Shown one piece after another: positions 51,345 through 52,826 of a stretch of DNA of 64,000 nucleotides. A program made the position numbers and the translations under genes. Position 1 is the stretch's first letter. Each line of letters begins with the position of its first letter. Below the pieces are notes generated by a model. That model saw nothing but the letters and a program-made list of their open reading frames with translations, made no database searches and had not been told where the DNA came from. The DNA comes from Mycobacteriales bacterium (GTDB lineage Bacteria; Actinomycetota; Actinomycetes; JAFAQI01; DASSKL01): NCBI GenBank assembly GCA_035690485.1, contig DASSKL010000066.1, forward strand, positions 1-64,000, given 5' to 3'.

Positions 51345-52000
51345 GCGAGCCGCTGCAGGTGGTGATCGCCGACGACCACCCGGTGTTCCTGAACGGCCTA
51401 CGGGCGCTGCTGTCGACCGACCCGGACATCCAGGTCGTCGGCGAGGCGGTCGACGGGCTGCAGGTCGTCTCGCTGGTCGAGGAGCTGCAGCCGGACGTCG
51501 TCGTCATGGACCTGCACATGCCCGAGCTGGACGGCGTCGCGGCGACCAGGAGCATCACGCAAGACAGCCCGCACGTCGCGGTGCTCGTCCTGACGATGTT
51601 CGACGACGACGACTCGGTCTTCGCGGCGATGCGGGCGGGCGCCCGCGGCTACCTGCTGAAGGGCACCAACCAGGGCGACATCGTGCGCGCCGTGCACCTC
51701 GTGGGCGCGGGTGGGGCGATGTTCGGTCCGCTCGTCGCGCAGCGGGTCATCGAGTTCTTCGCCCGGCCGAGACCGGCCGGGGTGGCGCTCGTGTTCCCGC
51801 AGCTGACCGACCGGGAGCACGAGATCCTCGAGCTGGTCGCCCAGGGGCACGCCAACCCGGCGATCGCCCGGCGGCTGCGGATCAGCGACAAGACCGTGCG
51901 CAACCACCTGTCGAACATCTTCACCAAGCTCGCCGTCGCGGACCGTGCGCAGGCCGTGATCCGGGCGAGGGAGGCCGGCCTCGGGACGCGTCCCATCTGA
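51341..52000 (+). CDS. NarL/FixJ-family response regulator
   Basis: 219-aa regulator. The receiver domain has the phospho-acceptor Asp in VVMDLHMPELDG and IADDHPVFLNGL at the N-terminus. The C-terminal LuxR-type HTH is LTDREHEILELVAQGHANP then ISDKTVRNHLSNIFTKL. It is translated with the kinase through a 4-bp overlap. Its targets are unknown. Confidence 0.93.
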   Translation: MSEPLQVVIADDHPVFLNGLRALLSTDPDIQVVGEAVDGLQVVSLVEELQPDVVVMDLHMPELDGVAATRSITQDSPHVAVLVLTMFDDDDSVFAAMRAGARGYLLKGTNQGDIVRAVHLVGAGGAMFGPLVAQRVIEFFARPRPAGVALVFPQLTDREHEILELVAQGHANPAIARRLRISDKTVRNHLSNIFTKLAVADRAQAVIRAREAGLGTRPI

Positions 52001-52030
52001 GCCCCGGGACCACGCGGGTAGAGTGAGTTC

Positions 52031-52123
52031 CGAAGGGGAGTAGCCCCGTCACCGGCGGTCGACATGCTGGCGCTCGCGCCCGGCCGCCGGGCCTGCACTC
52101 GCTGCAGGTGGGCGAGACCTTCG
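52031..52123 (+). ncRNA. yybP-ykoY manganese riboswitch aptamer
   Basis: Carries the family-defining 5' segment AAGGGGAGTAGC (from 52033) and the 3' segment GGCGAGACCTT. P1 is closed by CGAAGG (52031-52036) with CCTTCG (52118-52123). Internal helices fit the two-legged fold (ACCGGCGG... and CTGCA...TGCAG hairpins). This class senses Mn2+ and controls Mn exporters; the next gene is one. Confidence 0.9.
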
Positions 52124-52161
52124 ACCAGGCCGACCAGGCCGGGCCGAAGGCACCCCGTCCC

Positions 52162-52185
52162 TTCTCCCGGCCGAGACCGGGAGGA
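52162..52185 (+). promoter_or_regulatory. Shine-Dalgarno-sequestering hairpin (riboswitch expression platform)
   Basis: CTCCCGG (52164-52170) pairs with CCGGGAG (52177-52183) around CCGAGA, with two weaker flanking pairs. It buries the GGGAGG Shine-Dalgarno at 52179-52184. A second copy of CGAAGG (52145-52150) could pair with the 3' P1 strand CCTTCG and compete with P1. This suggests control of translation initiation. Confidence 0.6.
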
Positions 52186-52191
52186 ACCCAC

Positions 52192-52230
52192 GTGCGGAGC
52201 GGGCAGCACTGCCGCGGTGCGTCGTGCTGA
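52192..52230 (+). CDS. 12-codon leader ORF overlapping the exporter start
   Basis: GTG at 52192 lies 7 nt after GGGAGG, the best ribosome-binding site in the leader. It encodes VRSGQHCRGASC and stops at TGA 52228-52230, just after the exporter GTG at 52224 in another frame. The exporter itself has no good Shine-Dalgarno, so termination-reinitiation coupling is likely. Confidence 0.45.
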   Translation: MRSGQHCRGASC

Positions 52231-52826
52231 GCGCGGCGGTCGTCGCCACCGTGTTCGGCGTCATCTTCCTCGCCGAGCTTCCCGACAAGAGCCTGTTCGC
52301 CTCGCTGGTGCTCGGCACGCGCTACCGCGGGCTCTACGTCTGGGTCGGCGTGGCCGCGGCCTTCCTCGTGCACGTGGTCATCGCCGTGGCGGCCGGCCAG
52401 GCGCTGACGCTGCTCCCGCAGCAGGTGGTGGAGTCGGTCGTCGCCGCGTTGTTCCTGGCCGGCGCGGCCTACCTGCTGCTCGGCAGCGAGGAGGCCGTGA
52501 CGCGAGAGGGGGTCGAGGAGGGGGAGCGGGCGGCGCGCGTGCCGCCGAGCTTCCTGCGGGTCGCGCTGACGTCGTTCGGCGTGGTGTTCGTCGGCGAGTG
52601 GGGCGACATCACCCAGATCGTCACGGCCAACTACGCCGCCCGTTACGCCGCGCCGTTCTCGGTCGGCCTCGGTGCCGTGCTCGCCCTCTGGGCGGTGACG
52701 GCGCTCGCGGTGACCGCCGGCTCGAAGCTGCTGGACCACGTCTCCGTGACCGTGGTACGCCGGGTGACCGGGGTGATTCTGCTGGGCTTCGCGGCCTACA
52801 GTGCGGTGGCGGCGGCGACCGGCTGA
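52224..52826 (+). CDS. UPF0016/GDT1-family manganese exporter
   Basis: 200-aa membrane protein with six hydrophobic helices in two repeats. Each repeat carries the family's acidic motif: FLAELPDKS in the first, FVGEWGDITQ in the second. UPF0016 members move Mn2+ (and Ca2+) across membranes; a Mn riboswitch directly upstream makes Mn export very likely. The GTG at 52224 is the first in-frame start and overlaps the end of the 12-codon leader ORF. Confidence 0.88.
   Translation: MLSAAVVATVFGVIFLAELPDKSLFASLVLGTRYRGLYVWVGVAAAFLVHVVIAVAAGQALTLLPQQVVESVVAALFLAGAAYLLLGSEEAVTREGVEEGERAARVPPSFLRVALTSFGVVFVGEWGDITQIVTANYAARYAAPFSVGLGAVLALWAVTALAVTAGSKLLDHVSVTVVRRVTGVILLGFAAYSAVAAATG

Follow-up and report, generated by a model that had tools for sequence, protein, structure and literature searches.

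An uncultivated actinobacterium represented by one draft assembly has an RNA switch in front of a metal-exporter gene, and the locus raises the question of which ligand this switch would sense and by which route it would act on the exporter. The exporter and the features upstream of it lie as follows in the window, i.e. the whole stretch of 64,000 nucleotides that was analysed:

52019–52024, plus strand: −10 box TAGAGT (TANNNT), also present at this position ahead of the aptamer in relatives
52030–52125, plus strand: predicted Mn2+ (yybP-ykoY) aptamer of an actinobacterial branch, with covarying helices
52031–52036, plus strand: P1.1 5′ strand, CGAAGG
52118–52123, plus strand: P1.1 3′ strand, CCUUCG, by sequence and fold common to P1 and the anti-P1 hairpin
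52137–52172, plus strand: predicted ON hairpin, 12 pairs, GGCCGGG-CC-GAAGG with CCUUC-U-CCCGGCC
52145–52150, plus strand: repeat CGAAGG, 3′ strand of the predicted anti-P1 hairpin
52162–52170 and 52177–52185, plus strand: arms of the predicted Shine-Dalgarno (SD) hairpin, nine pairs including one U-G, as listed from the fold
52179–52184, plus strand: GGGAGG, SD of the leader ORF
52192–52230, plus strand: predicted leader ORF of 12 codons followed by TGA; peptide MRSGQHCRGASC if the GTG is translated as Met
52216–52219, plus strand: GGUG, a weak SD-like sequence located 4 nt upstream of the exporter GTG
52224–52826, plus strand: GDT1 family divalent cation/proton antiporter, 200 aa (Pfam PF01169, E 4.6e-36)

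The exporter GTG (52224–52226) lies 10 codons ahead of a conserved F, as in most relatives, and by this comparison is at exactly the homologous position. In the relatives, this start is usually located 3–11 nt past an SD. The two GDT1 motifs of the exporter are ELPDKS and EWGDIT, both of which deviate from the form E-x-G-D-(K/R)-(S/T) given in the accessible part of PMC7380456.

For the identity of the aptamer, we examined 112 loci gathered as relatives of the exporter, some of which represent one contig fetched twice (e.g. L002/L031 and L003/L095). GGGAGTAG together with GAGACC(T/C)T, at a spacing of 50–260 nt, was present in 87 of these loci. In an alignment of 21 out of 26 diverse aptamers (A1), from which aptamers longer than 135 nt were omitted, the P1.1 strands GAAGG/CCUUC were unchanged in all 21 sequences while the helices covaried, most clearly P1.2 (C-G to U-A) and the distal hairpin. 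In a second alignment built without the window (A2), 95.6% of the cells were paired and changes on both sides occurred at 13 of 25 pairs; none of the 500 shuffles reached the observed value in any of five measures, and the covariation signal was lost when the pairing partners were slid. GGGGAGUAG and GAGACC were invariant, and together with the CG/UA covariation in P1.2 they correspond to the L1 and P1.1/P1.2 core of the Rfam family RF00080. The window itself has P1, GGAGUA in L1 and GAGACC at 52114–52119. It scored 78.7 bits with covariance model R1, the training set of which included the window sequence, and 69.1 bits in the leave-one-out comparison with model R2, which was derived from A2. 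The aptamer is clearly more than a chance resemblance, and it stands in the leader of a Mn2+ homeostasis gene, as RF00080 members do. The yybP-ykoY core proposed in the sequence-only reading is thus present, and 52030–52125 is almost certainly a yybP-ykoY aptamer. Because the genes that follow matches to our models are mostly Mn2+-type exporters, class and gene context support Mn2+ as the probable ligand.

The standard model does not report this aptamer. RF00080 gave no match in the window at the gathering score, none between 51950 and 52300 at E up to 10, and none in a search of the source genome. Among relatives, sub-threshold matches at the correct place scored 27.1 and 23.9 bits in two of 19 searched with an E limit of 1, and up to 32.4 bits in seven of 14 searched with an E limit of 0.5, the cut-off being 45; the branch is therefore the same family seen from afar. 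Consistently, the available part of PMC3890552 shows that leaders of Corynebacterium glutamicum carried an RF00080 annotation in 2013, so the family was, on that source, already known in the phylum. In 393 sampled genomes of one actinobacterial class, R1 matched 201 (E up to 0.01), while RF00080 reached its cut-off in none and E 0.001 in six; both searches were run with stricter filters. R2 matched 38 of 296 genomes of the phylum (E up to 0.001). By these model comparisons, the switch is a member of a large actinobacterial branch that is missed by the standard Rfam model.

To place the branch in its gene context, we fetched 60 diverse model matches, mostly one per genus. Of the genes that follow them, 45 encode GDT1 (tblastn), five TerC, three MntP, three Na_Ca_ex and one VIT1, i.e. 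57 of the 60 loci precede one of these families; the other three encode a GreA/GreB factor, a PGPGW protein and a protein without a family. The neighbours that are not commonly associated with Mn2+ riboswitches were a PGPGW membrane protein (L172), a GreA/GreB-like factor (L184), a lipoprotein-like protein (L194) and VIT1 (L199). The source genome also has a second predicted Mn2+ riboswitch (L153; G000:C80:7761-7861, minus strand; 43.0 bits with R2) before a TerC gene. Its anti-P1 strand itself bears an SD (GCUGCCGAAGGAG), and therefore P1 formation would free that SD directly.

The sequence-only reading had pointed to the position of the transcript start as decisive, and by comparison with relatives, the aptamer is preceded by a promoter box. 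TANNNT was found at most 28 nt upstream of GGGAGTAG in 89 of 93 deduplicated loci, with 53 occurrences exactly at −20, while thirteen control windows of 20 nt farther upstream contained 0–6 TANNNT each. A scan of the window for a consensus sigma-70 promoter gave none; the TANNNT box came from the comparison. With TAGAGT at 52019–52024, the transcript probably begins at about 52031 and would hold the entire aptamer.

How would ligand binding be passed on to the downstream RNA? The sequence-only reading had proposed that a repeat of the P1 strand could compete for CCTTCG. The repeat at 52145–52150 pairs with the P1 3′ strand at 52118–52123, and this anti-P1 pairing was present within the MFE structure of 128 of 129 GDT1 loci. 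Likewise, the proposed hairpin over GGGAGG was recovered as nine pairs that cover all six of its nucleotides, and the SD was paired upstream in 111 of the 129 loci. In addition to these two hairpins, 52137–52150 is complementary to 52160–52172, a stretch including the SD-hairpin 5′ arm. The resulting ON hairpin is incompatible with both the anti-P1 and the SD hairpin. Taken singly, the energies were −20.0 kcal/mol for the anti-P1 hairpin, −15.6 kcal/mol for the SD hairpin and −21.1 kcal/mol for the ON hairpin. This adds a linking step to the earlier reading: the freed repeat and the SD-hairpin 5′ arm can, on these predicted folds, form a helix.

We compared this pairing in 27 representatives. 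Duplexes between the anti-P1 strand and the SD arm of the same locus had −13.9 kcal/mol versus −11.4 kcal/mol when the partners were swapped, and none of 5,000 permutations was as low. This comparison shows that the two strands coevolve across lineages, although common base composition could contribute. In folds of the growing transcript with P1 free, the anti-P1 and SD hairpins dominated once GGGAGG had emerged. With P1 held, the ON hairpin had a probability of 0.98–1.0 for transcript ends at 52172–52180; at equilibrium beyond 52180 it yielded to the SD hairpin (0.05 at 52188), and in the full-length fold the SD hairpin remained favoured. Therefore, the switch would need to work during transcription. 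In the window, holding the P1 3′ strand unpaired lowered the cost of opening the SD from 11.7 to 7.6 kcal/mol, an effect as large being found in none of 60 shuffles. The effect was mixed in 27 representatives, to which 86 loci were reduced and from which L027 was dropped as no SD was found in it (mean 0.50 versus 0.05 in controls): at most 5 of 60 shuffles were as large in 11 of them, and at least 50 were as large in 9. Because of these mixed results, we set the effect aside as a general proof. In total, we regard the logic of P1, anti-P1, ON and SD hairpins as likely.

According to this logic, at low Mn2+ the P1 3′ strand would pair with its downstream copy at 52145–52150, and the SD hairpin, its 5′ arm unoccupied, could shut over GGGAGG. 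At high Mn2+, P1 would be stabilised and the copy released; the copy and the preceding GGCCGGG would then bind this 5′ arm, and the ON hairpin so formed would keep GGGAGG open as the transcript emerges.

What GGGAGG serves in the window is a separate matter. In the relatives, the same hidden SD sits directly on the exporter; in the window, it lies 39 nt upstream of the exporter start and precedes GTG 52192, which is in a different frame. The best anti-SD energy upstream of this GTG was −10.0 kcal/mol (values of −9.7 kcal/mol or lower were found at 2.3% of random positions). As the sequence-only reading had described, the GTG lies 7 nt after GGGAGG and opens an ORF of 12 codons, the TGA of which (52228–52230) ends past the exporter GTG. 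The same reading held that the exporter has no SD of its own. This is almost correct: a weak SD-like GGUG is present, but at −5.3 kcal/mol it is equalled at 28.7% of 1,500 random window positions, and we rejected it as the SD of the exporter because it is no stronger than background. The cost of opening the exporter start was 12.9 kcal/mol compared with 2.7–11.8 kcal/mol (median 7.2) in 20 relatives, a cost ordinary for the window, where 44% of random positions are at least as high; that of the leader start was 8.7 kcal/mol and inside the range of the relatives. Making the leader region single-stranded hardly changed the opening of the exporter start (10.4 to 9.7 kcal/mol), so this had nearly no effect as an opener. 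Therefore, a ribosome at the leader stop codon would have to melt the exporter start.

Because the leader SD is strong, the exporter GGUG is at background and the exporter start is buried although exactly homologous in position, we favour coupling, i.e. that ribosomes would initiate at GTG 52192, translate 12 codons and terminate at TGA 52228–52230, and that the terminating ribosomes would unfold the RNA around the exporter start before reinitiating on GTG 52224. Exporter translation coupled to the leader is the best reading, and one that we hold with moderate confidence; leader translation and termination-reinitiation are the steps that we infer. The leader peptide MRSGQHCRGASC (52192–52227) contains one His and two Cys, a possible set of metal ligands that may mean nothing.

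The same switch could also be real and the leader ORF incidental, a short duplication having shifted the hidden SD away from an exporter that now starts by itself at GTG 52224 from the weak GGUG, with little regulation left. Of 131 GDT1-like loci, the window alone has a leader ORF with its own regulated SD, and we rejected a conserved leader ORF as a general feature since the other loci lack the arrangement. Moreover, a coupling ORF arose by chance in 18.6% of shuffled spacers and in 9.8% of the real 39-mers of the window, so that the overlap of leader and exporter on its own is not beyond chance. Finally, the spacer 52192–52223 resembles 52224–52256 with a global score of 9, which was reached by 0.6–0.8% of about 23,800 random window stretches (letter-shuffle p 0.003), and therefore the spacer may be a tandem duplication of the exporter start region (first 33 nt). 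Against an incidental leader, the switch is complete: its 12-pair ON hairpin is intact and fits the SD hairpin. In addition, opening the exporter start costs more than in any of the 20 relatives, and GGUG is at the random level. We consider this alternative unlikely.

Less probable still is control at the level of transcription, in which the choice between P1 and anti-P1 would set Rho-dependent or intrinsic termination and leader translation would at most shield the RNA from Rho. Precedents come from yybP-ykoY of Lactococcus lactis and Xanthomonas oryzae, in which, according to the accessible parts of PMC11087558 and PMC6754395, Mn2+ stabilises P1.1, the 3′ strand of which otherwise joins a competing hairpin, as predicted here; L. 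lactis uses antitermination (PMC11087558). The competing hairpin in those RNAs, as far as these sources describe it, is a terminator, whereas control in the window is predicted to be translational. In four loci (L200, L206, L207 and L212), a T-rich run lies between the SD hairpin of the GDT1 leader and the ATG immediately after it, and by eye the hairpin resembles a combined terminator and SD sequesterer. However, a scan of 51900–52300 found no terminator-like site, and neither hairpin of the window is followed by a T-run.

A sequence error, i.e. an indel between 52192 and 52224 that masks an exporter frame running uninterrupted from GTG 52192, would fit the single draft assembly and the lack of a second genome of its family among the relatives searched, but is very improbable: an indel would not put GTG 52224 at precisely the homologous position relative to the conserved F (10 codons), and an exporter read in frame from 52192 would be longer by about 11 residues, which are absent in relatives.

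For the coupled reading, a close tested precedent is ppe2 of Mycobacterium tuberculosis. As described in the accessible part of PMC11260477, a B12 riboswitch there governs the SD of uPPE2, an upstream ORF that is out of frame with ppe2 and overlaps it (AUGA). No obvious SD precedes ppe2 itself; the authors proposed anti-SD and anti-anti-SD strands, and reporters demonstrated termination-reinitiation. By sequence and predicted folds, the window has the same anatomy: a switch-controlled SD, an out-of-frame upstream ORF, a stop that overlaps the start of a gene lacking an SD, and anti- and anti-anti-SD strands. The two systems differ in that ppe2 has a B12-dependent OFF switch and an AUGA overlap, whereas the window has a switch of the Mn2+ class, predicted to be ON, and an exporter start 4 nt before the leader stop. 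Moreover, the upstream ORF is not kept in any other of the 131 loci. In the open-access literature searched, outside which most subscription papers lie, we found no paper that joins a Mn2+ riboswitch with an upstream ORF.

Compared with RF00080 yybP-ykoY RNAs in general, the window shares L1 GGGGAGUAG/GAGACC, P1.1 with P1.2, the GACAU element, the P1.1 3′ strand as the switch strand and Mn2+-type exporter genes (GDT1, TerC and MntP). It differs in that its aptamer is below the Rfam threshold, that the GDT1 relatives tested have the chain of P1, anti-P1, ON helix and SD hairpin, and that in the window the SD is that of the leader ORF.

Streptomyces-type GDT1 leaders (L033-L104 and L113-L137) have a different arrangement, in which GCCGAGGUGUC, the anti-P1 strand, forms a strong SD ahead of an ATG or GTG, and the ORF opened there runs up to TTGA or ATTGAGG at the start of the exporter (e.g. 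L044). Such an ORF after GAGGUG was present in 26 of 46 unique leaders versus 11.0 expected, which is significant; after clustering, the count was 7 of 18 versus 4.1 expected (p 0.083), which is not, and we treat it as a lead only. It is a tentative and rather doubtful extension that, in Actinobacteria, this large Rfam-invisible branch repeatedly switched from hiding the exporter SD to gating a leader ORF, the ribosomes of which would open the exporter. The window, in which the SD of the SD hairpin would drive the leader, may then be one solution; in many Streptomyces, the anti-P1 strand GAGGUG may be the SD of a short ORF, often some 16 codons long, which extends to the exporter start or stops shortly before it.

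In total, the sequence-only reading is partly supported: sequence comparison backs the riboswitch identity, the P1 strand and its copy, the hidden SD, the exporter start and the promoter. We lean towards a Mn2+-activated translational yybP-ykoY riboswitch that would act on the exporter via the leader ORF. If true, this would be a Mn2+ riboswitch that governs a gene through translation of a leader ORF, a metal counterpart of the B12 switch of ppe2. More broadly, the analysis reveals a Mn2+ riboswitch branch that is matched in 201 of 393 genomes of one class, none of which RF00080 reports at its cut-off, and the P1, anti-P1 and anti-SD logic of which is open to simple reporter assays.
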